Of a DNA stretch of 64,000 nucleotides, positions 8,680 to 63,073 are shown in pieces. The DNA comes from Mycolicibacterium gadium. GTDB lineage: Bacteria; Actinomycetota; Actinomycetes; Mycobacteriales; Mycobacteriaceae. Location: positions 868,001-932,000 of the forward strand of contig NZ_AP022608.1 in the NCBI RefSeq assembly GCF_010728925.1, written 5' to 3'. The notes under the pieces were generated by a model, which saw only the letters and a program-made list of their open reading frames with translations, was not told the origin of the DNA and did no database searches. Each line of letters starts with the position of its first letter. Positions within the stretch are counted from its first letter, which is position 1. The position numbers and the translations under genes were made by a program.

Positions 8680-8693
8680 TAGAACCTGTTCTA
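8680..8693. promoter_or_regulatory. KstR-type operator upstream of the SnoaL-like pair
   Basis: The 14-mer TAGAACCTGTTCTA matches the KstR consensus TNNAACNNGTTNNA at every fixed position and is itself a near-perfect palindrome. It lies 33 bases from the start codon of the first SnoaL-like gene. KstR is the TetR-family repressor of the mycobacterial cholesterol regulon. Binding is inferred from the motif. Confidence 0.8.
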
Positions 8694-49020: not shown

Positions 49021-50193
49021 TCACCCGTAGGCAAGCAGCAGTGGGACGTTCTGCTCGGCGCTCGTCAGCGAGCCATGATGGCCGATCAACGAAGACTCCA
49101 GTGGCTCGACCGTTCGTCTCAGCAAACCTACAGAACCGCGGGCTGCGGCTACGACTTCGCCGATGCGGCTTCGCGTCGTGTCGCTGACACGCTCGCCGAA
49201 CCAGCCGGCGGCAATAGCCTCGTCGCGCGAGACCACCCATGCCCGACTCGCGAGCGTCGCCCGCCATGTCGCCAACACGTCGTCGGCCGCGCCGGGGGCT
49301 ACATATATATGTCGCGCCCGAGCCTCGCCCCCGATCTCGGTCACACCAACGGTGAGCGAGTCGTCGCTGTCGATGTCGACGTCGTCGGTGCCGACCGTGA
49401 CCATCCCATGGTCGGCCACGACTGCGAGAAGTCCTCCGGGCGGCAGGGCCTCGACAATAGATTCCACCAGCCGGTCGATCTGGCGCAGCTGCATGGTCCA
49501 TGCGGTCGATCCGGGCCCGTAGAGGTGGCCCATCATGTCGAGTTCGCTGTGATAGGCGTAGCAGAACCCGCCGGCGCCAACGGATTCGCACACCCGCGCC
49601 GACAGATCGCCCATCGCGTGCACGCCGATGTACCGGCCGCCGCGCAGCGCCGCGCGCGTCATCCCGGACCCGGTGAATTCGGCCCCCGAGATGACGCTGA
49701 CCGACGCCCCCGCCGAGACGGCCCGTTCGAACGTCGTCGGCATCGGTTGCACCTGCTCGGGCGGCGCAGCGTCTCGCACGTCGGCGCCCCACGGGTGTAT
49801 GCGCCAGCGCAAAGCGTTCACCACACCGATGTCGGGCAGCCGGAAGGAGTAACCGACCATGCCGTGCTCGCCGGAGCGACAGCCGGTGCCCAGCGCGGCG
49901 AGTCCGGCGACGGTGGTGGCCGGGAAGCCGACCTGCAGCGTGCGGCCGCGTAGACCGGCCATGACGGGCGCGTCGGCGGCGTATTCGTCGAGTAACTCCG
50001 CGCCGAGCCCGTCGACCAACAGCACGCAGGCGCCGGTGATCTCGGCGTCGAACGTTATCCGGCTGTCGAATCCCGCGACACCCATCGCGGAGAGAACGGA
50101 CGGTATGACGTCGGCGAGGTGTGGCGTGTCCGGACTGGGCTGTGGCAGGTCCACACGCCGAGCCTGCCACACCGCCGGACGGCCTTTACCCAT
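49021..50193 (-). CDS. alkaline-phosphatase-superfamily phosphodiesterase/nucleotide pyrophosphatase
   Basis: The protein has 390 residues from ATG 50193; GTG 50154 may be the true start, since the first 13 residues are not typical. Metal-binding landmarks are Val-Asp-Gly-Leu-Gly near residue 60, the nucleophile Thr in Phe-Pro-Ala-Thr-Thr near 91, an Asp-Met-Met-Gly-His segment, and Ala-Asp-His-Gly-Met. This fits nucleotide pyrophosphatases and phosphodiesterases. It may act on nucleotides or a lipid head group. It is divergent from the giant regulator gene with 32 bases between them; a shared promoter region is therefore possible. Confidence 0.83.
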   Translation of the reverse strand: MGKGRPAVWQARRVDLPQPSPDTPHLADVIPSVLSAMGVAGFDSRITFDAEITGACVLLVDGLGAELLDEYAADAPVMAGLRGRTLQVGFPATTVAGLAALGTGCRSGEHGMVGYSFRLPDIGVVNALRWRIHPWGADVRDAAPPEQVQPMPTTFERAVSAGASVSVISGAEFTGSGMTRAALRGGRYIGVHAMGDLSARVCESVGAGGFCYAYHSELDMMGHLYGPGSTAWTMQLRQIDRLVESIVEALPPGGLLAVVADHGMVTVGTDDVDIDSDDSLTVGVTEIGGEARARHIYVAPGAADDVLATWRATLASRAWVVSRDEAIAAGWFGERVSDTTRSRIGEVVAAARGSVGLLRRTVEPLESSLIGHHGSLTSAEQNVPLLLAYG

Positions 50194-50225: not shown

Positions 50226-53200
50226 ATGGGCGACGTGACTACGCTTTCACTCGTGGAGCTGGGGGTTTTAGGGCCTCTGCAGGTCCGGCAGTATGGCCTG
50301 CCGGTCGCTGTCCCAGGCGCAAAACCACGCGCTGTCCTCACCATGCTCGGTCTGCACGGCGGTTCCGTCGTCACGGCCGACGCCCTCGCCGAGCTGCTCT
50401 GGGGTGCTCGTCCGCCGCGTACCGCCGTCAAGGCGCTGCAGACCCACATCTCTTCTCTGCGCCGCGCCCTCGGCGATGGTTATGTGCTGACGGAGGGGAT
50501 CGGGTGGACCCTGAGCACGACCGAGATCGACGCCACCCGGTACACGCTGGCCGCCAGGCAGGGGCGCGACGCGTTCGCGGGCGGAGACGCAGGCCAGGCC
50601 GTGGCCCGGTTCGACGAGGCGTTGGCACTGTGGCGCGGCGTGCCGGAGCTGCCCGATGGGCCACGCGGCGGGTCGGAGAAGACGCGCTGGATCGAGGGGC
50701 ACGCCGCATTGGTCGAGGACCGGGCCGATGCGCTGCTCGCGACGGGGCGGGCCGCCGAAATCGTCGGCGAGTTGGAGGCCGCGATCGCCGATGCCCCGTT
50801 GCGCGAGCGGCGTTGGAGTCAGCTGATGCTCGCCCTTTATCGCGCGGGCAGGCAGGGTGAAGCGCTCGGGGCGTATCAGCGGGCACGCTCGATGCTCGCC
50901 GACGAGCTCGGCGTCGACCCGGGACCTGATCTTCGCCGACTGGAAGCCGCGATCGTCGCGCAGGACATTGCCCTGGAAATCGCTGTGCCGGAACAACTGT
51001 CGGTGGTAACCCGTGCGGTGACGTTTCTGCTCACCGATATCGAGGGCTCGACCGCGGCCTGGGAGGCCGACGCAGACGCGATGGCGACGGCGCTCGCGCG
51101 GCACGACGAGATCGTCGAACAGGTCGTCACGTCGCGGGGAGGCCGCCTGGTCAAGACGCGAGGCGAGGGCGATGCGACGTTCTCGGTCTTCGATCGGCCA
51201 TCAGGCGCGGCCGCCGCCGCCATCGAACTGCAGGAGGCGATCCGCCACGAACCCTGGGTGCTGGCCGAGCCCATGCGCATTCGCGTGGCGCTTCATACCG
51301 GCGAGGTCGAGTTGCGCGACGGCGACTACTTCGGCCGGGCGGTCAACCGTGCCGCCCGTCTTCGGTCGCTGGCGCAGGGCGGGCAGATCCTATGCTCGGG
51401 GGCGACGGCGGAACTCGTGATCGACACGTTGTCCGACGATGTCGTGCTTGCCGATCTCGGTGTGCGGCACTTGCGCAACCTCGCGCGCCCCGAGCATGTC
51501 TTTGAAGTCCGGCTGGAGACGGCCGCGGAGTCTGAGTTCGACGGCGCAGCGGAGGCGCTACCCATCCAACGGCCTCCTTTGCCGGCGGTGCTGGGTGGAC
51601 CGGGGCCGTTCGTCGGGCGCGGCCCAGAGCTCGCGGGACTCCTGGCCGCTTGGGAGTCAACGCTTACCGCGGGTGCGCACGCCGTCCTGATCGCGGGGGA
51701 GCCGGGCGTCGGCAAGACCCGGCTGGCCGGTGAGTGGTCCCGGCTGGCTTATGAACAGGGGGCCGTCGTCCTCTATGGACGCTGCGACGAAGATCTCGGC
51801 GCGGCGTATCAGCCGTTCGCGGAAGCCTTGCGGTCGCTGGTGCCGAGTCTCGGTGCCAACAGGCTGCGCGGGCTTCGCGGTGCCGAAGCACTTCTTCCGC
51901 TCGTGCCGGGGTTGACCGACGTCGTGCCCGATCTGCCGACGCCTTCCCGTTCGGACCCCGACACCGAACGCTACGCGCTGTTCGACGCCGTCGTCGCACT
52001 GCTGGCGATGGCATCGGCAAGTGCGCCGATCGTCTTGATCCTCGACGACCTGCACTGGGCGGCCAAACCCACGCTGCTGCTCTTGCGACATCTGCTGCGA
52101 TTCGGGGAGCACGCGCAGGTACAGATCGTCGGCACCTACCGCAGCACGGACCTCGACCGCTCGCATCCGCTGGCCGCGATGCTCGCCGACCTGCACCGTG
52201 ACGGCTCCGCCACTCGCCTCGCGCTGGGCGGCCTCGACGAGAAGGACGTCACCACTTATGTCACCGAAGCGGGGTACGACGACGTCGAATTGGCGAGGGC
52301 ATTGGCATCCGTCACGGGAGGCAACCCGTTCTTCTTGATCGAGGCGTTGCGGCATGTTGATGAGAGCGGCGGTCGTTGGGATCCGAGCACATTGCCGCAG
52401 GGTGTTCGAGAAGCTGTGAGCCGCAGGCTTTCCCGGCTTCCGGCAGATACTAATAAGGCGTTGGCTGCGGCTGCGGTCGTGGGGGCTCGGTTCCCGCTCG
52501 CGCTGGTCGAGCAGGTGGTCGGCGAAGACCTCATCGACGCCTTCGACGAGGCCTGCAAGGCGGGCATTGTCATCGAGGAGCCGGGCGGTCGGTATCGGTT
52601 CAACCACGCGCTCGTTCGGCAGTCGCTGTTGGCCGAGCTGGCGTCGGTGCGGCGGATGCGGCTGCATCAGCGGATCGCCACCACCCTGGAGGCGGAAGCG
52701 GGTGCGGATGACGAACTGCTGGCCGAGCTGGCATACCACTACTTCGAATGTGCGTGGGCGGGCAACGCGGCCAAAGCAGTCGAGTACTGCCGGCGGGCGG
52801 CGGACCAGGCGATCGAACGTCTGGCGTATGAGGGCGCGGCCGAGCTCTACGACCGGGCACTGCATGCGCTGGAGGAGCTCGACGACGACCTGCCCGACCG
52901 CGACTCCCTGCAAGCCGAACTGCTGGTTGCCCGGTGCGAGGCGCTGCTGGCAGCGGGTGACGTGAGTTCGGCGGTTGGTGCGGTATCCCAATTGCGCAGG
53001 GCGGCTGGGGACTCGGTGCGTCTGACGGCATGGGGCACGTGCTTCGGTGGTCAGCTATCGATGCTCACGGATCCCGAACGTTTGGACGAGATCGAATCCG
53101 AGGTGCGCGACGCCGCACAACGGTTGGCCGAGCTGGATGATGCTGCGGGGGAGGCGAATGCACATACGGTTCGGGCGGCGTGCCTGGCCCGCTTGGGTCG

Positions 53201-56200
53201 CATCGCCGAAAGCGAAACAGCGTTGGATCAGGCGCTGACCGCGGCACGCCGCGCGCGTGACCATCGTCGGGTGAATGCGGTGTTGGCGGGTGCGCCGTTG
53301 GCGGCGCTGTGGGGACCTAATCCGGTTCCGCGTGCCGGCGGCCGGTGTCTCGACGTTGTTCGACTGCTGCGTATTACCACGGGGTCGCCGGTGGTGGAGG
53401 CCACGTCGACACGGTGCCAGGGAGTGCTGGATGCGATGCGTGGACGGGCCGCCGCGGGGCGGCAGCTGATCGAGTCGGCCAGGCGCACCCTCACCGAGCT
53501 CGGTATGCGGCACGCGTTGCTCGAAGTGGATCAATTCGCCGGCATTGTCGAGTTGGTCGCTGACGACCCAGCTGCTGCCGAACCGCATCTGCGGAGGGCG
53601 TATGTCGGATTTCGCAGGATGGGTCTGGACGCCGATACCGCAGAGACCGCAGCGTTCTTGGCGCGCACTTGCCTGGCGCTTGACCGGGACGCCGAGGCCG
53701 ACGAACTGTGCAGGGAGAGTGAGCGTCTGGCCGGTCATGCGTTGAGGCCGTCGATCACCTGGCGGACGGTTCGTGCCCAGTTGCACGCGCGTGTCCGTGC
53801 TCATGACGAGGCCCGGCAGGTGGCGAAAGAGGCCGTCAGCATCGCCGAGTGCACCGATGCTCTGGTGGATCACGGCGATGCCTGCCTGACGCTGGCGATG
53901 GTGCTTACCATGGCCGGCGACACCGCGGGGTCACGAGCGGCAGCTGAGCAGGCGGTAGCACTGTTCGAGCGCAAAGGTGCTGCGGCACTGGTTGAACGGG
54001 CTCGGAGTCTACTCGGTACCGACGCCTCGGCTGTCTCCTCGGCGCCCGAGGTGGCGACGGTTGAACCGGAGAACGAGTGTGTGCGAACGCTTCGCCGCGT
54101 CGAGGCCGCCGTCGTGCGCAAGGCGTGGAGCGAGGTCGAGCAGGCACACGCGGAAGTCGGCTCCGTCGAAAGCCGTCGGAAGATAGTCGGCTTTGAACGG
54201 ATGATCCTCCCCGCACGCCGAATGGCGAGTGGAGCAGAGAAATTCATTCGCGATATGCGCGCCGTGCGCACACGTCGCCCGATCGTCGCCATCCGGGGCG
54301 AGCGTCTGGCGCTGACACGGACGGTCGTGGGCACAGCCGACGATACTCCCGGCGCGCCGGTCGATGAGATGCTCCAGCTGGTCGGCATTGACGAAGACGG
54401 CCGAATTGCATTGCAGGTCTGGTTCGACATCGATGATCTCGAGGCGGCGAAGGCCGAGATGGACGCTGCCTACGCACGATTCGAACTCGATAACGCGTGC
54501 GTGCGAGCGTTCGACGCCCTGGTGGCGGCGTACGGTCGCGAAGCCTGGGGCGAAGTCGAGCAGGCACACGCGGAAGTCGGCTCCGTCGAAAGCCGTCGGA
54601 AGTTAGTCGGCTTCAACCAGACAGATCTTCCATCGCTCGATTGGCCCAGCGAGTCGAGACGTTTGGCGGAGACCAGTCTTCAGCTAGTGCGTTACATCGT
54701 TGTCGCGATCAGGGGAGAGCGCCTTGCGCTGACACGTCTCGAGTTCGGCGCTGGAGACGACAGCGTGGGCGCACCCCAGGACCCGGTCCTTTCCTTGAAC
54801 GGTATCAACGAACAGGGCCGTTTCGTTTTGCAGATGTTTTTCGACATTGAAGACATTGATGCCGCGTTCGACGAACTTGACAAGCGATATGTCGAAGGCG
54901 AGGCCGCATCCCGCGCACAAACTTGGTCGGCCGTCGTTCGTTCCTGTATCGCCGTCAGTCGGCAGGAGATTCCTCCGGCGACGCCCGACTGGGTGAACGT
55001 CGACCACCGCAAGGGAACTCCGTTCAACTCAAGCGACGTGATCGCCGTGCTCAGCGCCTCAAGGAACGTGACGCCGGAGTTCCGCTGCCAAATCGAAGCG
55101 GTCCATGCATTAAGCGACATCGGCGCCGTCGTTACCTGTCGGTCCTTTGGAGCTACGCACGACGGCTTTGAAGCCGAGTGGAGAGTGGTTCTTCTACAAA
55201 CGTTCGACGGCGACCTGATAGCCCGAAACGAAATTTTTGACGAGGCAGACCTCGACGCCGCGGTCGCGAGGCTCGACCAGCTGAGTAGATCGGCCCCGCG
55301 GCTAAATAACACTGCGAACCAGGTTCTGGAGAGTTACCTGTCTCACTATGCGGCGCGGGACTGGGATCTCATGTCACCGTCGCTGGCCGACGATTTCTCG
55401 GCTGCCGATCGTCGCCGCGTAGTGAATAGCGGCATCCGACACGGTCGCGACAACGAGATCACGAATTTGAAAGCCATGGTTGAGCTCGGCGTCGCGGATA
55501 TCACGACGGAACCAGTGGCGATCCGCGGAGAGCGGCTCGTCCTCGCTCGTCACAGCTTCATCGCGCCCGACTGGGCCAACTTCGAGACCGAAACGGTTGA
55601 CGTCGTCGAAATCGATGCCGATAACAATATAGTGGCCGAAATTCTCTTCGAGGCAGATGATCTCGATTCTGCGATCGCCGAACTCGAGGCCCGCTACTGC
55701 GCTGGCGAAGCAGTGGAGCATGCCGGCAATTGGTCGGTTATCACACGGGCGTTTGATGCGGTGAATCGGCGCGAAATTCCGGCAATGACACCCGACGCTG
55801 TCGACGTCGACCATCGACAGGTTGCGCGGATTGGGTCTGGTGATCTCAAGGCGTATCTGAATGTCGCTTTCGACGATTTGGTGGATAGCCATCTGTACGT
55901 TGAGTCCGTTCATCGACTGACCGGCGTAGGAGCGGTCGTCACCCACGTGGCGAAGGGAACCTCACAAGACGGACTCAACGTCGAGTGGCGCCTGATCGAC
56001 GTCGTAACGATCGATCGCGACCTGATAAACCGTATTGAGATGTTCGATGAGGCCGAGCTTGACGCCGCGCTCGCCAGGTTCGACGAATTGAATCGGCCCA
56101 CGCCGCGTCTAGAGAACGAGGCAGTACGAGTGTCCGACCGCCTCCGGACGTTGTTCGAAGCTCGCGATTGGGCTGCGCTTGCAGAGCTTTATGCGGAGGA

Positions 56201-59200
56201 CGTGTCCGGCGATGACCACCGCCGTGTCATTGGTGGCGGTCCCCGGAGCGGTCGGGATGTCGAGATCGCAAACCTGCGTGCGATGGCGGAGCTCAACGCG
56301 CCGCGAATTGACGCGTCTGTGCTTGCGGTTCGTGGGCAACGGCTCGCCCTTTTTCAAGATCGTGTCGGGGACGGCAAGAATCTGATCGAAGCGTCGTTCC
56401 TCGGGCTTCTCGAGATCGATGCCGACGGCTTGATCGTCGCCCTGGCGGGGTTCGACGACGACGATCTCGACGCCGCGTTTGCCGAACTGGATGCCCGCTA
56501 TCTCGCCGGCGAAGGGGCCGAGAACGCACACACGTGGTCCGTCATCATGGAGGCGTACGGGGCAGTAAATCGGCATGAGCTACCCGCTTGGACCGCGGAT
56601 ACGGTCACCGTCGATCACCGGAGCACCACCGCCTTCGCGCCCGGCGACCTCGCCCCGTACCTTCGCGCAACATGGGCGCAGACTCCCGATGTCAGGGTCG
56701 ACATCGTGGCCGTTCATCGGCTGACGAGTTTCGGCGCAGTTGTCACCCATGTAGCGAAAGGAACCACGGAACAGGGATTCGAAGGTGAATGGCGGGAAAT
56801 CACGCTGTCGACGGTCGAAGGTGACCGCATAAGCCGTAGCGAGATGTTTGACGAGGCCGACGTTAGCGCCGCCCTCGCGAGGTTCGATGAGATCACCCTA
56901 CCGACAAGGCAGTTGGAGAACGCCGCGAGTCGAGTGGAAGCGCGCGCCCAGGCCCTCATCGCAGCAGGAAACTGGGATGCGATGTCAGAGGTCCTGGCGG
57001 ACAACGTTTCGATCGACGATCGTCGTCGCGTCGTGAATGCCGGCCTGCGACGGGGTCGAGATGCTGTGGTCGAGGATCTACGGGTCGGTGCTGAGATCGG
57101 CCTTAACCACATCGCGACTAGGGCCATCGCGATCCGGGGCGAGCGGTTGACGCTGCGGCACATCCGCTATTCAGGTGGCGAAGAACGACCCGAGGCCGGC
57201 GTGATCGATCTGGTTCAAATCGTCGAAATCGATGCGGACGAACGAATCACGGCCCTCGTTCTCTTCGACGCCGACGACTTCGATGCCGCCCTGGCTGAAT
57301 TCGACGCCCGGTACATCAGAGGTGAGGCGACTGACTATGCACGCACATGGTCGGTGATCGCTGAAGGCTGCGCCACACTCAACCTGAAGCAGTTTGCCGC
57401 GACCACGCAGGACTACGTGTATGCCGACCGGCGCCGAGTCGCAAACATCGGTGCGGGCGACATGAAAGAATTTTTCCGCGCTGCATGGGATCTCACGCCG
57501 AATCTGACTACTTTTGTCGAGTCCGTATATAAGCTGAGCGACGGCGGAGCCGTTGTCAGTCAGGTTGCGCATGGTAATTCGCCGGACGGCTTCTATGCCG
57601 AGTGGCGGGTAACCAACGTCTACACGGTTGACGGTGGACTCCTGAGTCGGTGCGAGGTTTTCGACGAGGCTGACCTCGACGCCGCGCTGGCCAGATACGA
57701 CGAGCTCGAAACTCCGTCAGCTTCGCTTGCCAACCCGGCAAGCCAAGTAGCCGAACGGTTCTGGTCGTGTTACGAGGCGCGCGACTGGGACGGTATGAGG
57801 GAAACACTCTGGGACGGCGTCGCCACCGACGATCGACGTTCGGTCGTCAGTTTCGACGCCAATCAGCAGGGCGCCGGTTCCGTAGTTGAAATCATGCGTG
57901 CGGCGCCCGACATCGGCGTGCCTCACGTAACGCAGACGGTTCTCGCCACACGCGGCGAGCGCCTCGCCCTCGTTCACGTCCGCTTCACGGGCCGGGAGCA
58001 GGAGCCCGATCCGTTCTACTCGGAACTGCTCTACATGTTCGAGGTCAATTCCGACCATCGGATCACAGCATTCGTCCCGTTTGATGCGCATGCCGATGCG
58101 GCGGCACACGAGGAACTCGACAACCGGTACCTCGCCGGCGAAGCAGCCACGCATGCGCACGCCTATTCGGTGATTGCGGAGGCCTTCGCTGCGGTGAACC
58201 GCCGCGAACTACCCTCGACAGCGTCGGATTTCGTGAGCATCGATCATCGGCGACCCATCGCGTTCGCACCCGGGGACATGATGGCGTACCTCCAGGTGAC
58301 CTTGAACGATGCCCCTGAAATCCGAATCGATCTCGAGACGGTACATCGACTGAACGAATTTGGCGCGGTCATGTCCCACCGATGGCATAACACCTCTCAA
58401 CAGGGGTTTGACGCCGAGTGGCGCGTCGTCGGCGTCACGACCGTCGAAGGGAATCTGATCAACCGGTGCGAGCTTTACGACGAGGCGGACCTCGACGCGG
58501 CACTGGCGAGATTTGACGAACTCACTACGCCGACGCCGCAATTGGAGAATGCGGCTAGTCGATTGACGAGACGGTTCCAGGAATCATTTGGCGCACAAGA
58601 CTGGGATGGTCTGGCGGAGATCTTCGCCGAGGACATCTGCCTTCACGATCGCCGTCGGGTGGTGGGTGCCTCTTTCGTCGGACGAGATGCCACCGTGGCG
58701 AACATGCGCGCGTCCGCTGAAACGGGCGTCAAGAATGTGACGTCGACGGTCATGGCTACCCGTGGAGACCGCCTCGCTCTCCAACGTGTGCAGATCGCTG
58801 GCAGGGATCAGCGACCTGAGGCGTTCCGCACGGACGGCATTGTCATCACGGAGGTCGATGCCCATAACCGGATCGTTGCTTTTATCATGTTCGACGTCGA
58901 CGAATTCGACGCCGCCATCGCCGAACTCGACGCGCGTTACCTCGCTGGCGAAGCCGCGGTTCACTCACGAACGTGGTCGGTCATCAAGGATGCATACGCG
59001 GCGCTAAACCGTCACGAAATTCCACCGACGACGCCAGATTGGGTGACCGTCGACCATCGGCGAGGAGGCAACGCGTTTGCTCCGGGCGAACTGGCGACTT
59101 ACATTCGGTCCTCCTGGCAGGACTCACCGCGCAACAGAATTCACGTCGAAGCGGTGCACAGGCTGAACGATGTTGGGGCCGTTGTCACTAGCACGACGCA

Positions 59201-61796
59201 AGGGGAGTCGGTCACAGGCTTTTTCGCCGAGTGGCGAGAGGTCGCCCTGGTAACTGTCGACGGCGATCTGCTCAGTCGCACAGAGCTATTCGACGAGGCC
59301 GATCTCGATACCGCGCTGACGAGGTTCAACGAACTCTCCGGTCCACGAGTCTTGGAGAACGCAGCCAGCCGAGTAATCAAGCGAAATCGCGCGTGCTTTG
59401 CGGCCCGCGACTGGGACGGCATGCGAGCCGCCCTCGCAGCGGATTTCACGCTTGACGATCGCCGACGCACGGTAAACGGTGGGATGAGTCATGGTCGGGA
59501 TTCCATGATTCGCGATGTGCGCATAGCAGCCGATGTCGGCTTCACAGATGTCGCCGAAGATGTAGTGGCTATGCGCGGAGAACGACTCATTCTGACGCAA
59601 GCGCGCTATTCAAGGAGTGATGAACCGGCAGATGCCTTCTTCGGCGAGGTGCTGCACGTTTTCGAAACCGACGATGCAGACAAGATCACCAGAACAATCG
59701 TGTTCGACCCAGACGACTTCAACGCGGCCTTTGCCGAACTCGACGCGAGGTATCTTGTCGGCGAAGGGGCAGCGCACCCTCACATTTGGTCTCTCGTCAT
59801 GCAAGCGTATACCGCCTTCAACCGTCACGAGTTTCCCTCGGCAACAAAGGACTTCACGAGCGCTGATCACAGGCGAGTGATCGCCTCGGCACCCGAGAAA
59901 ATGGCGAAGTACGTCCGTAATGTGTGGGACATCGCGCCGGACGCGCACGCGTACGTCGAGTCCGCGCACCGGCTGAATCGTCTGGGCGCTGTCGTCGTCG
60001 TTCCCGCACGCGGAAAATCGCGGGATGGATTTGACGCCGAATGGCGTGAGGTCCACCTCCTGATTTTCAAAGGTGATCTGATGATCCGCCTAGAGTTATT
60101 CGACGAAGCCGACCTGGACGCAGCGATCGCGCGGTTCGACGAACTCAGCGCACCGGCGCCCCGACTCGAGAACGCCTCGACGCGGGTGTGGCAGCGATTC
60201 GCCACTGTGTACAACGATCGTGACCTGGATGGCCTTCTTGAACTACATGAACCAAACGCATACTACGAGGACCGACGAAAGGGCCTTCAGGACGAAGGTC
60301 TCGTGGAACCGGAGGTTGCGCGCGCCGTGTTGTTCGACGCGCCGCCCGGTTGGCGCCTGGCGATCGAGCCCGTCGCGACCAGGGGACAGAGTCTTTCGCT
60401 GATCCGGGGCACTTTCCGCGATACGGACGAACCCGGCGAGCCAAGTGCGATCGAAGTCCTGACCGTCGCGGAGGTATCGAATGGCGAATTGATCTCCTAC
60501 GAGGCGTTTTTCGACACCGACGACCTCGACGCCGCTTTCGCCGAGCTCGACGCACGCTACCTTGCGGGTGAAGGCGCGGCGCACGCACAGATGTGGGCAC
60601 TCGTTGTCGACAGTTACGCCAGGTTCAACCGGCATGAGCCGCCTTTGACGGCCACGGATTGGGCGAACATCGACCACCGACGTGTGACAGCGTTTGAGCC
60701 AGGCGACCTGACGAACTATGTCCAAGCGGCGTTCACCGTCACACCGGACACTCAAGCCCACATTGCGGCGGTACACAGGCTGAGCAATCTCGGCGCGGTG
60801 ATCACGGCCTCGACGTATGGAACATCGCCGGAGGGATTCCGAGCCGAGTGGCGGGACATTCACCTACTCACGTTCGAGGGTGACCTGGGCAACCGCTTCG
60901 AGCTGTTCGATGACGACGACCTCGACGCCGCGATCGCGAGGTTCGATGAACTCAGCACCGCACCCAGACTCGAGAACGCCGCGACGCGCGTTCTCGCCCG
61001 CGCTGTCGACGCCTTCAACCGTCGCGACATCGAAGGCTATCTCGCCACCTACTGCGATCAAGGTCGATATGACGATCGACGAAAAGGGTTGCGCGACAAC
61101 GGGCCGATCAAGCCGAAGTTCGCGAGCGCGCTAGTGCTCGACGCGGGCGCGGCCTGGCAAGAGGACATCGAGTGCATCGCCGTCAGGGGATCTCATCTGA
61201 TGTTGGGCCACGTGGCATTTCGCGACCACGGCGAGGTTGACCAACCAGTTGCAGTGGAGGCCCTTCTTGTCGCGGAGATCACAGACGATGAATTGATCTC
61301 TGCGTTCGTCGTCTTCGACTGCGATGACATTGACGCCGCCTTCGCCGAACTCGACTCGCGGTACATCGCGGGCGACGCGGCCGAGCACGCGCGCACATGG
61401 TCGGCGATCGCCAACGCCAACGTGGTGTTCAATCGGCGTGAGATGCCGCCGACGACGCCCGAATGGATCAATGTCGACCATCGTCGGGGTGGGATGGCTT
61501 TCGCGCCCGGTGACCAGACGGAGTACATTCGCGCGACCTGGGACGTCGCATCCCACATCAGCAACCGTATCGTCGCCGTGCATCGGTTGAGTGAAAATGG
61601 AGCGGCTTTCACGCAGTTCGTTCAGGCGACCACTCCTGACGGGTTCAAGGGGGAATGGCGCGATGTCGTTATCCTCACTGTCGACGGCGACATGATCAAC
61701 CGTTGCGAGGTTTTCGACGAGGACGACCTCGACACCGCGGTATCAAGATTCGACGAGCTCGACGGCGAGGGCCGCGTAACCGTCACCAATCCCTAG
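50226..61796 (+). CDS. giant SARP/BTAD - cyclase - ATPase - TPR protein with 19 NTF2-like modules
   Basis: The frame is uninterrupted for 3856 residues, about 420 kDa. In order: an OmpR-type winged helix (about 1-95) and BTAD helical domain (about 95-245); class III cyclase domain (about 262-430) with metal Asp in TDIEGS (Asp271), GEG at 313-315 where GDG is usual, and Asn374-x3-Arg378; a P-loop ATPase with Gly-Glu-Pro-Gly-Val-Gly-Lys-Thr (491-498) and Walker B Asp607-Asp608; TPR-like helices (about 700-1280); then 19 modules (1283 to about 3850) that I interpret as NTF2/SnoaL-like. No membrane or signal segment is seen. Start could be ATG 50226, GTG 50235 or GTG 50253. It may sense hydrophobic ligands and regulate transcription, but this is inference. 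It shares a CTAG stop overlap with the HNH gene. Confidence 0.88.
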   Translation: MGDVTTLSLVELGVLGPLQVRQYGLPVAVPGAKPRAVLTMLGLHGGSVVTADALAELLWGARPPRTAVKALQTHISSLRRALGDGYVLTEGIGWTLSTTEIDATRYTLAARQGRDAFAGGDAGQAVARFDEALALWRGVPELPDGPRGGSEKTRWIEGHAALVEDRADALLATGRAAEIVGELEAAIADAPLRERRWSQLMLALYRAGRQGEALGAYQRARSMLADELGVDPGPDLRRLEAAIVAQDIALEIAVPEQLSVVTRAVTFLLTDIEGSTAAWEADADAMATALARHDEIVEQVVTSRGGRLVKTRGEGDATFSVFDRPSGAAAAAIELQEAIRHEPWVLAEPMRIRVALHTGEVELRDGDYFGRAVNRAARLRSLAQGGQILCSGATAELVIDTLSDDVVLADLGVRHLRNLARPEHVFEVRLETAAESEFDGAAEALPIQRPPLPAVLGGPGPFVGRGPELAGLLAAWESTLTAGAHAVLIAGEPGVGKTRLAGEWSRLAYEQGAVVLYGRCDEDLGAAYQPFAEALRSLVPSLGANRLRGLRGAEALLPLVPGLTDVVPDLPTPSRSDPDTERYALFDAVVALLAMASASAPIVLILDDLHWAAKPTLLLLRHLLRFGEHAQVQIVGTYRSTDLDRSHPLAAMLADLHRDGSATRLALGGLDEKDVTTYVTEAGYDDVELARALASVTGGNPFFLIEALRHVDESGGRWDPSTLPQGVREAVSRRLSRLPADTNKALAAAAVVGARFPLALVEQVVGEDLIDAFDEACKAGIVIEEPGGRYRFNHALVRQSLLAELASVRRMRLHQRIATTLEAEAGADDELLAELAYHYFECAWAGNAAKAVEYCRRAADQAIERLAYEGAAELYDRALHALEELDDDLPDRDSLQAELLVARCEALLAAGDVSSAVGAVSQLRRAAGDSVRLTAWGTCFGGQLSMLTDPERLDEIESEVRDAAQRLAELDDAAGEANAHTVRAACLARLGRIAESETALDQALTAARRARDHRRVNAVLAGAPLAALWGPNPVPRAGGRCLDVVRLLRITTGSPVVEATSTRCQGVLDAMRGRAAAGRQLIESARRTLTELGMRHALLEVDQFAGIVELVADDPAAAEPHLRRAYVGFRRMGLDADTAETAAFLARTCLALDRDAEADELCRESERLAGHALRPSITWRTVRAQLHARVRAHDEARQVAKEAVSIAECTDALVDHGDACLTLAMVLTMAGDTAGSRAAAEQAVALFERKGAAALVERARSLLGTDASAVSSAPEVATVEPENECVRTLRRVEAAVVRKAWSEVEQAHAEVGSVESRRKIVGFERMILPARRMASGAEKFIRDMRAVRTRRPIVAIRGERLALTRTVVGTADDTPGAPVDEMLQLVGIDEDGRIALQVWFDIDDLEAAKAEMDAAYARFELDNACVRAFDALVAAYGREAWGEVEQAHAEVGSVESRRKLVGFNQTDLPSLDWPSESRRLAETSLQLVRYIVVAIRGERLALTRLEFGAGDDSVGAPQDPVLSLNGINEQGRFVLQMFFDIEDIDAAFDELDKRYVEGEAASRAQTWSAVVRSCIAVSRQEIPPATPDWVNVDHRKGTPFNSSDVIAVLSASRNVTPEFRCQIEAVHALSDIGAVVTCRSFGATHDGFEAEWRVVLLQTFDGDLIARNEIFDEADLDAAVARLDQLSRSAPRLNNTANQVLESYLSHYAARDWDLMSPSLADDFSAADRRRVVNSGIRHGRDNEITNLKAMVELGVADITTEPVAIRGERLVLARHSFIAPDWANFETETVDVVEIDADNNIVAEILFEADDLDSAIAELEARYCAGEAVEHAGNWSVITRAFDAVNRREIPAMTPDAVDVDHRQVARIGSGDLKAYLNVAFDDLVDSHLYVESVHRLTGVGAVVTHVAKGTSQDGLNVEWRLIDVVTIDRDLINRIEMFDEAELDAALARFDELNRPTPRLENEAVRVSDRLRTLFEARDWAALAELYAEDVSGDDHRRVIGGGPRSGRDVEIANLRAMAELNAPRIDASVLAVRGQRLALFQDRVGDGKNLIEASFLGLLEIDADGLIVALAGFDDDDLDAAFAELDARYLAGEGAENAHTWSVIMEAYGAVNRHELPAWTADTVTVDHRSTTAFAPGDLAPYLRATWAQTPDVRVDIVAVHRLTSFGAVVTHVAKGTTEQGFEGEWREITLSTVEGDRISRSEMFDEADVSAALARFDEITLPTRQLENAASRVEARAQALIAAGNWDAMSEVLADNVSIDDRRRVVNAGLRRGRDAVVEDLRVGAEIGLNHIATRAIAIRGERLTLRHIRYSGGEERPEAGVIDLVQIVEIDADERITALVLFDADDFDAALAEFDARYIRGEATDYARTWSVIAEGCATLNLKQFAATTQDYVYADRRRVANIGAGDMKEFFRAAWDLTPNLTTFVESVYKLSDGGAVVSQVAHGNSPDGFYAEWRVTNVYTVDGGLLSRCEVFDEADLDAALARYDELETPSASLANPASQVAERFWSCYEARDWDGMRETLWDGVATDDRRSVVSFDANQQGAGSVVEIMRAAPDIGVPHVTQTVLATRGERLALVHVRFTGREQEPDPFYSELLYMFEVNSDHRITAFVPFDAHADAAAHEELDNRYLAGEAATHAHAYSVIAEAFAAVNRRELPSTASDFVSIDHRRPIAFAPGDMMAYLQVTLNDAPEIRIDLETVHRLNEFGAVMSHRWHNTSQQGFDAEWRVVGVTTVEGNLINRCELYDEADLDAALARFDELTTPTPQLENAASRLTRRFQESFGAQDWDGLAEIFAEDICLHDRRRVVGASFVGRDATVANMRASAETGVKNVTSTVMATRGDRLALQRVQIAGRDQRPEAFRTDGIVITEVDAHNRIVAFIMFDVDEFDAAIAELDARYLAGEAAVHSRTWSVIKDAYAALNRHEIPPTTPDWVTVDHRRGGNAFAPGELATYIRSSWQDSPRNRIHVEAVHRLNDVGAVVTSTTQGESVTGFFAEWREVALVTVDGDLLSRTELFDEADLDTALTRFNELSGPRVLENAASRVIKRNRACFAARDWDGMRAALAADFTLDDRRRTVNGGMSHGRDSMIRDVRIAADVGFTDVAEDVVAMRGERLILTQARYSRSDEPADAFFGEVLHVFETDDADKITRTIVFDPDDFNAAFAELDARYLVGEGAAHPHIWSLVMQAYTAFNRHEFPSATKDFTSADHRRVIASAPEKMAKYVRNVWDIAPDAHAYVESAHRLNRLGAVVVVPARGKSRDGFDAEWREVHLLIFKGDLMIRLELFDEADLDAAIARFDELSAPAPRLENASTRVWQRFATVYNDRDLDGLLELHEPNAYYEDRRKGLQDEGLVEPEVARAVLFDAPPGWRLAIEPVATRGQSLSLIRGTFRDTDEPGEPSAIEVLTVAEVSNGELISYEAFFDTDDLDAAFAELDARYLAGEGAAHAQMWALVVDSYARFNRHEPPLTATDWANIDHRRVTAFEPGDLTNYVQAAFTVTPDTQAHIAAVHRLSNLGAVITASTYGTSPEGFRAEWRDIHLLTFEGDLGNRFELFDDDDLDAAIARFDELSTAPRLENAATRVLARAVDAFNRRDIEGYLATYCDQGRYDDRRKGLRDNGPIKPKFASALVLDAGAAWQEDIECIAVRGSHLMLGHVAFRDHGEVDQPVAVEALLVAEITDDELISAFVVFDCDDIDAAFAELDSRYIAGDAAEHARTWSAIANANVVFNRREMPPTTPEWINVDHRRGGMAFAPGDQTEYIRATWDVASHISNRIVAVHRLSENGAAFTQFVQATTPDGFKGEWRDVVILTVDGDMINRCEVFDEDDLDTAVSRFDELDGEGRVTVTNP
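54135..54193 (+). repeat. near-identical DNA repeat, copy 1 (module A1)
   Basis: This 59-base stretch is repeated at 54555-54613, exactly 420 bases on, with a single mismatch (A at 54183 versus T at 54603). The first 48 bases are identical. Other module pairs in the array are far more diverged at DNA level, so this part looks recently duplicated or converted. Confidence 0.9.
54555..54613 (+). repeat. near-identical DNA repeat, copy 2 (module A2)
   Basis: This is the partner of 54135-54193. The offset of 420 bases equals exactly the 140-residue length of module A1, so the copies lie at the same position within two neighbouring modules. Confidence 0.9.
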
Positions 61797-63073
61797 CTAT
61801 TGCTTTGTGGTTTGGGTTCGAATGGGGTGTACCACCACCAATCGGCGCGTTCGCCGATGGGTCCACGGTAGGGCGGCACATCGGGCGGGGGTCGATTCGG
61901 TGGTCGGGCAAGCGATCCGGAGCTGAGTGTTCGTCCGTCACTGTCGGTGACGGTGATGTTGGGTGCGGGTCCGGTGATAGTGATGACGCCGCGGTGGTGC
62001 AGGCGGTGGTGATACGGACAAAGCAGCACGAGATTGTGCAGTTCGGTGGGACCGCCGTCTTCCCAGTGCTGAATGTGGTGGGCGTGTAGTCCGCGGGTGG
62101 CGCCGCAGCCGGGCACCGCGCAGGTGGGGTGGCGGTGTTCCAGGGCGCGGCGTAGTCGGCGGTTGATAGTACGGGTGGCGCGCCCGGTGCCGATCGGTTG
62201 TCCGTCGCGTTCGAACCACACTTCACACGTCGCGTCGCAGGTCAGGTATTGGCGGTCAGCATCGCTGAGCAGCGGCCCCAGATGCAGGGCAGCGATGCGA
62301 TCTTTGACGTCCAGATGCGCGACGACGGTGGTGTGCTGGCCGTGGGGGCGGTGCGCCACGTCGGCGTCCCAGCCGGATTCGACCAAACGCATGAATGCGT
62401 CGCCGGTGGTCGGCAACGGGGGCCGCTGTTCGGACGTGGAGTTCTCGTGGTCGCGTTTCCACTCGGCGATCACCGCGTCCAGATGTGACTGCAGCGCCGC
62501 GTCGAACGTCGCCGCGTCGAGGTGGGACAGGGTGATCTTCCAGGTGCTGCTCTGGTCGTCGCTGCGGGTTTTGGTGATCGAGGGCCGCGGTGGCGGTTCG
62601 GGTTCACGTTCGGGTTGCACGTCGCGCCAGGGGTCGGGCTCGGGTGGCAGGGGTGGTTCGAGTTTCAGCGCGGTGTTGAGTTGGCTGACGGTGGCGACTT
62701 CGGCAAATGCCGCGTAATGCTCATCGGATCCGTCGCCGGCTTTCTTGGCGATGGCCCCGACCTGATCCAGCGACAATCGGCCGTCGCGCATCCCTGCCAA
62801 GCAGAGCGGGAATTGCGGCAGCCGATGCGCGATCGCGGCGATCGTGTTGGCGTTGCCAGTCGACGAACCGGTCTTCCACGCCACCAGTGCTGAGATCGAG
62901 CGGCACCCGGTGATGCCCCACAGCCTGTCGTGCTCCATCTCCGCGACGATGTCCACGATGCGCCCGTCGATGGCGTTGCGCTGACCCATCAGCTCACCCA
63001 GCTCTTCGAACAACACCTCAAGCCGGTCCTTCGGGCGCACGACCCCCGCATCGGGTGCGGTGGTCGTGGACAT
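61793..63073 (-). CDS. HNH endonuclease of the DUF222/13E12 repeat family
   Basis: The protein has 426 residues. A DUF222-type helical domain fills roughly 20-300, and the C-terminal HNH motif is intact: Cys-Ala-Val-Pro-Gly-Cys, then His-His-Ile-Gln-His-Trp, a Leu-His-Asn-Leu and Cys-Pro-Tyr-His-His segment. The four metal-binding Cys and His and the catalytic His are visible. 13E12-type proteins are multi-copy in mycobacterial genomes, often near repeats, with an unknown role; mobility has been suggested but not shown. The gene is convergent with the giant gene. Confidence 0.9.
   Translation of the reverse strand: MSTTTAPDAGVVRPKDRLEVLFEELGELMGQRNAIDGRIVDIVAEMEHDRLWGITGCRSISALVAWKTGSSTGNANTIAAIAHRLPQFPLCLAGMRDGRLSLDQVGAIAKKAGDGSDEHYAAFAEVATVSQLNTALKLEPPLPPEPDPWRDVQPEREPEPPPRPSITKTRSDDQSSTWKITLSHLDAATFDAALQSHLDAVIAEWKRDHENSTSEQRPPLPTTGDAFMRLVESGWDADVAHRPHGQHTTVVAHLDVKDRIAALHLGPLLSDADRQYLTCDATCEVWFERDGQPIGTGRATRTINRRLRRALEHRHPTCAVPGCGATRGLHAHHIQHWEDGGPTELHNLVLLCPYHHRLHHRGVITITGPAPNITVTDSDGRTLSSGSLARPPNRPPPDVPPYRGPIGERADWWWYTPFEPKPQSNS

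Follow-up and report, generated by a model that had tools for sequence, protein, structure and literature searches.

A giant mycobacterial protein joins a SARP/BTAD, cyclase and STAND-type ATPase head to a mosaic array of paired NTF2-like modules

Introduction

The large SARP regulators of the AfsR type carry an N-terminal SARP winged helix and BTAD domain followed by an ATPase and helical repeats, an order of parts which is also found in the protein described here. A second likeness is with a set of zinc-ribbon/cyclase/STAND/TPR proteins of Actinomycetota (L122, L124, L139 and L140), in which the cyclase, AAA_16 and TPR regions occur in the corresponding order and are accompanied by an NTF2-like array of 5–10 modules (by Pfam in L122, L139 and L140). 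The recruitment of an NTF2/SnoaL domain as the regulatory part of a transcription factor is described in PMC8999054 for ECF41-type sigma factors, of which SigJ is an example. The NTF2/KSI fold itself is shared with Lsd19, MonBI/MonBII, ketosteroid isomerase (KSI) and Rv0760c, and Lsd19 contains two such domains per chain.

The gene considered below lies in a 64,000-nt window, the term used here for the whole stretch of Mycolicibacterium gadium DNA that was analysed, and codes for a protein in which a head of largely familiar composition is joined to an array of NTF2-like modules.

Results

Gene and order of domains

The gene consists of a single ATG-initiated frame (50226–61796, + strand) of 3,856 codons with no internal stop codons, in agreement with the uninterrupted 3856-residue frame of the original prediction. 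The parts occur in the order SARP/BTAD, class III cyclase, STAND-type ATPase, helical solenoid and 19 NTF2-like modules (Table 1). Pfam endorsed the helix-turn-helix/BTAD, class III cyclase and P-loop ATPase domains called beforehand, and the helical repeats also called at that stage were seen with good confidence (~870–1190) in a predicted model.

The host genome is one contig of 5.96 Mb, in which a search located the array in this frame only, and long unbroken arrays were also present on chromosome-sized contigs of relatives, namely a 5,739 aa protein on a 5.3 Mb contig of M. cookii (P0013) and a 5,560 aa protein on a 6.4 Mb contig of M. rhodesiae NBB3 (P0011). An assembly accident, a concern raised when the frame was first noticed, is for these reasons an unlikely source of the giant frame.

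Table 1. Positions in the window of the gene and of the parts of its product.
Feature	Coordinates	Strand	Evidence
Whole gene, 3,856 codons plus stop	50226..61796	+	ORF
Winged-helix DNA-binding domain (Trans_reg_C, residues 33-84)	50322..50477	+	Pfam 27.1 bits, cut-off 26.2
BTAD domain (residues 101-243)	50526..50954	+	Pfam 127.7 bits, cut-off 22.1; EmbR/AfsR structure sequence match
Class III nucleotide cyclase domain (residues 263-397)	51012..51416	+	Pfam Guanylate_cyc 36.9 bits, cut-off 21.9
AAA_16 / STAND-type ATPase core (residues 461-633)	51606..52124	+	Pfam 95.5 bits
Helical (TPR-like) solenoid, ~residues 870-1190	52833..53795	+	predicted paired helices
Module 1, leading unpaired A	54072..54491	+	profile search
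A-B pair 1 (modules 2-3)	54492..55307	+	profile search
A-B pair 2 (modules 4-5)	55308..56114	+	profile search
A-B pair 3 (modules 6-7)	56115..56918	+	profile search
A-B pair 4 (modules 8-9)	56919..57731	+	profile search
A-B pair 5 (modules 10-11)	57732..58547	+	profile search
A-B pair 6 (modules 12-13), first half of modelled piece	58548..59357	+	profile search, model
A-B pair 7 (modules 14-15), second half of modelled piece	59358..60170	+	profile search, model
A-B pair 8 (modules 16-17)	60171..60974	+	profile search
A-B pair 9 (modules 18-19), last before stop	60975..61793	+	profile search

The conserved head

A sequence search of the PDB returned EmbR and AfsR as the closest solved structures for the SARP/BTAD region, and 3mr7 and Ma1120 as those for the cyclase. 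The heads of homologues are 77–93% identical to that of this protein. Alignment of the heads of 170 of 184 proteins (14 in which the head was cut were left out) demonstrated that the cyclase candidate residues D271, K310, E314, D316, D367, N374 and R378, which we take to have catalytic roles (E314/D316 as alternatives), are invariant in 170/170. Alignment of the cyclase with its solved relatives Ma1120 and 3mr7 placed two extra residues in its metal loop; the second metal ligand may accordingly be either E314 or D316, and the domain is regarded as a candidate cyclase. The Walker A (GEPGVGKT) and Walker B (LILDD) motifs of the ATPase were conserved across the same 170 heads, with G491/G494/G496/K497/T498 and D607/D608 invariant in all of them. 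By sequence, the motifs of both the ATPase and the cyclase appear intact.

The predicted model of the head was poor (pLDDT 62). In the solenoid model most blocks had pLDDT values of 80–95, with a dip near residues 1021–1060; Pfam gave no TPR match in this protein, and its TPR_12 profile matched the corresponding region of the related proteins L139, L140 and L122.

The array and its repeat unit

An iterated profile search resolved residues 1283–3853 into exactly 19 modules, none of which had an E value above 2e-39 when the search was seeded with A, and Pfam recorded a SnoaL_2 match of 97.5 bits (cut-off 27). The array thus accounts for 2,571 of the 3,856 residues, and both the number of tandem modules and the two-thirds share of the protein foreseen in the original prediction were confirmed. 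The repeat of ~135 residues proposed there gave the correct module count, but not the repeat unit: two types of module, A and B, alternate, and the true repeat unit is an A-B pair of ~270 residues with one extra A in front, this protein being composed of one leading A and nine A-B pairs.

In a set of 120 proteins (this protein plus 119 homologues among the matches listed), a run of A modules followed by strict BA alternation described 118 arrays, and 110 ended in B. The leading run comprised 1–5 A modules (two in this case, the extra A and that of the first pair), after which A and B alternated at 2726 of 2728 neighbouring steps. Array size in the set was 16–39 modules, a range bounded by the length filter of 0.55–1.75 of the query, and the longest protein, of metagenomic origin, contained 6,546 aa. 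Shorter homologues with 1–7 modules exist, many of them cut by contig ends. A search for stand-alone relatives of the modules returned, among the 120 matches listed, only proteins of 163–245 aa, which look like array fragments in that they lie mostly on short contigs or correspond to size fractions of an array.

Fold of the modules and location of the variable positions

The predicted structure of an A-B-A-B piece (pairs 6–7) exhibited the NTF2 fold with a mean pLDDT of 90, the relative placing of the modules being uncertain (pTM 0.59). The best solved fold matches were Rv0760c with estradiol hemisuccinate, KSI, and designed vitamin D3/steroid binders, so that the structure prediction proposed at the outset upheld the NTF2 fold then suspected. 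By profile and predicted fold, the modules belong to the NTF2-like/SnoaL superfamily. The best two-domain Foldseek matches were the polyether epoxide hydrolases Lsd19 and MonBI/MonBII, with a TMt to Lsd19 of only 0.33–0.41.

Each module position was scored for its diversity among all modules versus substitution among close modules. In strands 1, 4, 5 and 6, inward-facing positions had higher entropies than outward-facing ones in both A modules (2.90 vs 1.64, p 8e-4) and B modules (2.36 vs 1.40, p 2e-3); the inward parity was set after the per-site values were known, and strand 3, whose first half varies on either face, did not enter the test. Within-lineage substitution inside vs outside was 0.93 vs 0.82 for A and 0.67 vs 0.77 for B modules and, as the rate in A modules was not lower inside, the cavity score rests mostly on between-lineage diversity.

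The list of KSI active-site residues came later. Of the 14 named in PMC8028329, Thr93 was dropped because its equivalent is unclear. When the 136 positions were ranked by specificity, the 25 highest included 10 of the 13 mapped equivalents (p = 1.6e-6), the mapping beyond residue 91 (including Asp99) being by equal numbering rather than by a printed alignment. On these sequence comparisons, the positions by which lineages of modules are best told apart fall in the NTF2 cavity; a similar pattern could arise if buried cores differed, and many cavity positions take polar as well as hydrophobic residues.

The KSI catalytic set (Tyr14, Asp38, Asp99) was not reproduced in the modules. An Asp38 equivalent was present in A modules only, where D34 is nearly invariant and a D-R-R motif occupies the position; B modules have His at this position, and the equivalents of Tyr14 and Asp99 are variable, the commonest residues being F/L/V and G/Q/S respectively. 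An acidic/basic motif that hardly varies (D-R-R or D-H-R) was observed at A-module residues 34–36 and 72–73 and at B-module residues 169–171. At the cavity position equivalent to KSI Asp38, this motif is perhaps a common ligand anchor or a structural need.

Evolution of the array

The examination of homologues suggested with the original prediction established that the layout is shared, and revealed features which that prediction had missed, namely the alternation and variable length of the arrays and the mosaic exchange of modules. In 19 isolate-locus pairs with heads at least 90% identical, the median dN/dS was 0.08 in the head vs 0.29 in the modules. In the same pairs, dS was more than twice that of the head in 2% of 172 head windows vs 45% of 269 aligned modules, and below half that of the head in 3% of the modules; for L041/L057, module dS extended from 0.02 to 1.24 against a head dS of 0.26. 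To judge from such sequence divergence, the replaced modules are old lineages and not fast-evolving copies.

Comparison of 31 protein pairs with heads at least 97% identical, pairs which are not independent of each other, gave 182 of 737 aligned modules at less than 70% identity and 183 at 95% or above, and array length differed in 22 of the pairs. Array length changed mostly by whole pairs, in that 171 of 250 runs of inserted or deleted modules were two modules long and 199 were even-numbered; in the array comparison the 1715-pair and 239-pair bins include copies, and the last bin was sampled. Three metagenomic proteins with heads at 98.9–100% (P0010, P0031 and P0033) have 26, 24 and 18 modules respectively, and P0087 and P0109 (heads 99.0%) have 25 and 21.

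The isolates P0116 and P0119 (head identity 96.8% in one comparison and 98.5% in another) illustrate the pattern: modules 4–11 and 14–23 are 94–100% identical, and modules 1, 2, 3 and 12 only 42–60%, with the changes falling within ~20 residues of module edges. Around one such break, identity is 100% to ~residue 2760, 30–50% over most of module 12, 85–95% in module 13, and 95–100% thereafter. P0044 and P0045 (heads 99.8%) display the same replacement at module 12, together with one break that lies inside module 25, off the edge. At position 12, P0044 is 99% identical to P0049 and 98% to P0052, and P0045 is 93% identical to P0048, whereas P0044 vs P0045 is 50%.

The module set comprised 3,768 modules of 173 proteins, after the removal of 11 copies; P0002, the sequence of which is that of P0001, did not enter the module analysis. 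The nearest relative of a module had a median identity of 81% when sought in another protein vs 54–57% in its own, and lay inside its own protein for 53 of the 3,768; only three within-protein pairs reached at least 90%, on which ground concerted evolution of the repeats was rejected. Among 1,467 module pairs at 85% identity or above (heads below 98.5%), 576 shared the same position from the start and 324 from the end, 508 were shifted by up to four and 59 were placed otherwise, and related modules therefore sit at related positions. When collinearity with P0001 was assessed, only 27 of 183 proteins had at least 8 of 19 modules at 55% identity or more; the longest ordered run made up 0.66 of the matches vs 0.43 when shuffled, which indicates that module order is kept in near relatives only.

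Recombination is the simplest cause of the array mosaic. Shuffling between paralogous arrays of one genome was rejected as a source, in that eight comparisons within six genomes with 2–3 arrays detected no modules shared at 80% or above. Two arrays of M. tusciae, which may belong to one genome or to two, share three modules at this level.

Distribution and related architectures

Array matches (E 1e-10) were recorded in 111 of 248 genomes sampled within the genus (Mycobacterium, to judge from named relatives). The order sample gave matches in 24 of 397 genomes, all in the genus and hence in one of 85 genera; the class sample gave 12 of 296, with one outside the genus (G648), and the phylum sample, searched with a diverged profile, 7 of 396, again with one outside the genus (G916). 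The profile search scored the first 6 to 10 candidates per genome, and the counts of genomes lacking the array may be too high. Of 72 loci, 69 are labelled as Mycobacteriaceae genera or family, and three are MAG contigs labelled otherwise.

Both G648 and G916 combine a double zinc ribbon with a cyclase, an ATPase, a TPR region and 5–6 NTF2 modules, the composition noted for the rare out-of-genus relatives at L139:3741-9560 and L140:2551-8181. Within the genus, another architecture occurs in G011 and G093; its alternating array has diverged, with five A-like modules clear and the B-like ones weak. At L122:724-8217 and L124:2526-9881, a cyclase, STAND-type ATPase and diverged NTF2 array occur together without BTAD, L122 having an N-terminal double zinc ribbon. 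By sequence, then, the array has become attached to no fewer than two types of head, as it accompanies both BTAD-type heads and zinc-ribbon architectures.

Among the 120 shorter head homologues listed of 1568, 17 were module-less, but many are annotated as partial or cut by contig ends, so that these are not secure examples of a head without an array. The presence of two head or array genes within one 12–20 kb stretch in L025 and L067 suggests tandem array genes. Arrays split over two frames in eight of 72 loci (L011, L014, L042, L043, L045, L049, L075 and L079) may be decayed genes or assembly errors, and stop codons occur in some array matches.

Genomic context

The divergent neighbour (49021–50193, − strand), separated from the giant gene by a 32-base gap, is a type I phosphodiesterase/nucleotide pyrophosphatase gene. 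Homologues of it lie beside the head in eight of the 64 loci that contain a head, 47 of these 64 extending more than 1.5 kb upstream, and also in L102, a flank of G011, and a different divergent upstream frame is common to twelve other loci. As its neighbours vary between loci, the giant gene looks like a stand-alone unit. On the opposite strand, a DUF222/HNH gene (61793–63073, − strand) shares four bases with the giant gene at the stop end of the latter.

A scan of the window with what we take to be the KstR palindrome consensus gave perfect matches at 8680, 35008 and 37335 (3 vs 0.10 expected), which is consistent with a putative sterol regulon elsewhere in the window. Steroid sensing had been put forward in the original prediction because of that regulon, a link left unsupported by the 12.9 kb between the gene and the nearest KstR-like site and by the differing neighbours in other loci. 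Nor does a fold shared with steroid binders name a ligand.

Discussion

Taken as a whole, the protein is best explained as a cytosolic, very large sensor-switch, an explanation given about an even chance of being correct. The idea of a multivalent ligand sensor is retained as the best reading because the positions which distinguish modules map to the cavity. In its fuller form, it would involve a multi-specific array for small ligands mounted on a conserved cAMP/DNA-binding switch and diversified by recombination, a proposal about as likely to prove right as wrong. Its observed basis consists of the domain anatomy, the A-B unit, the conserved head residues, the gain, loss and replacement of modules, and the specificity positions that map to the cavity.

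On this proposal the 19 modules would act as ligand-binding cups, each module lineage with its own pocket, and the small ligands bound would probably be lipid- or polyketide-like. The helical solenoid would relay binding in the cups to the STAND-type ATPase, a change in the assembly state of which might both bring class III cyclase domains together, with the production of cAMP, and allow the SARP/BTAD head to act at promoters as a putative DNA-binding unit. Recombination would diversify the locus such that the head is kept as modules are gained, lost and swapped, giving strain-specific cup panels with the same output, and selection may favour a varied panel. The stronger proposition of a combinatorial receptor, in which individually specific cups serve one conserved switch and their diversity is kept by cassette exchange and balancing selection, is a tentative one, considered possible rather than probable; if true, it would represent a chemical counterpart of the polymorphic receptors of immunity or allorecognition, and would supply a natural library in which one fold comes with many variant pockets.

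A rather unlikely alternative is a role in conflict or in self/non-self recognition, for which the protein would be a polymorphic receptor whose array recognises foreign proteins (phage, competitor or kin markers) and whose cyclase/DNA-binding head raises the alarm. The conserved head with its STAND-type ATPase and variable C-terminal sensor would be in keeping with such a role, as would the diverged module alleles common to several proteins, exemplified by position 12 of P0044 and P0045. Antiviral STAND proteins, as described in PMC10907252, likewise have N-terminal effectors and highly variable C-terminal sensors. However, the distinguishing positions map to the cavity and not to an exposed face, PADLOC gave only weak matches to the head (mad8, 22 bits; PycC, 20.9 bits), and Pfam detected no toxic effector domain in the giant protein. 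Furthermore, the repeats of fungal NLRs are near-identical and undergo concerted evolution, both of which are absent from the array.

It is improbable that the modules constitute a tethered set of NTF2-fold catalysts (isomerase or epoxide-hydrolase-like), the work of which is coupled by the head to regulation. The two-domain matches to Lsd19 and MonBI/MonBII and the D-R-R motif with its nearly invariant D34 in A modules would suit such a function, but the variable Tyr14 and Asp99 equivalents, the His of B modules at the Asp38 position, and the low TMt to Lsd19, from which it follows that the pair geometry differs, argue against it.

There is similarly little likelihood that the array is a structural spacer or scaffold in which length counts for more than the pockets. 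Its regular A-B period, the wide range of lengths among the 120 proteins and the shortness of some complete-looking arrays are compatible with that role; however, a spacer has no need of individual modules, yet module lineages keep their identity across proteins and their diversity maps to the cavity, and arrays differ in length even where heads are 98–100% identical (several of these being metagenomic), which implies that no length is strictly required.

Equally unlikely is a near-neutral mosaic, in which a weakly constrained array is scrambled by recombination and the gain and loss of pairs without functional meaning: the higher dN/dS of the modules, the split arrays and the occasional stop codons point that way, but a value of 0.29 is still purifying, blocks of 95–100% identity beside others of ~50% are not expected from loss of constraint alone, and the frame is kept over 16–39 modules.

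If the sensor proposal is right, mycobacterial receptors contain as many as 39 cup modules and evolve by the swapping of sensor cassettes with the output fixed, and it becomes possible to test in general how broad panels for chemical detection are assembled and kept up by a cell on a single switch. Thousands of natural NTF2 pockets of known relationship would be useful in ligand discovery and protein design, and the array might serve to mark differences between strains of environmental mycobacteria.

With regard to known systems, the kinds of head, the NTF2 fold and variable STAND sensors have all been described already. Neither the long paired NTF2 array with cassette exchange nor the SARP/cyclase/STAND/NTF2-array layout was found described in the open-licence literature, a scope outside which most subscription journals lie; PMC7159879 mentions neither SnoaL nor BTAD, and NTF2 once, for a different system. 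Relative to AfsR-type regulators, the giant protein has an inserted cyclase and the 2,571-residue NTF2 array, and its score of 154 bits did not reach the NCBIfam AfsR equivalog cut-off of 1430. In the zinc-ribbon proteins a double zinc ribbon replaces BTAD (L122, L139 and L140), the arrays are shorter and more diverged, and such proteins are rare outside the genus. ECF41-type sigma factors have one SnoaL-like domain vs 19, with no ATPase or cyclase. By comparison with KSI and Lsd19, the modules lack conserved equivalents of Tyr14 and Asp99 and are paired in a different geometry. Finally, antiviral STAND proteins and fungal NLRs resemble the giant protein in joining a conserved ATPase switch to a variable C-terminal sensor (PMC10907252), but whereas their sensors consist of TPR, WD40 or lectin domains, that of the giant protein, which has no known link with defence, is composed of cup modules with no homogenised repeats.
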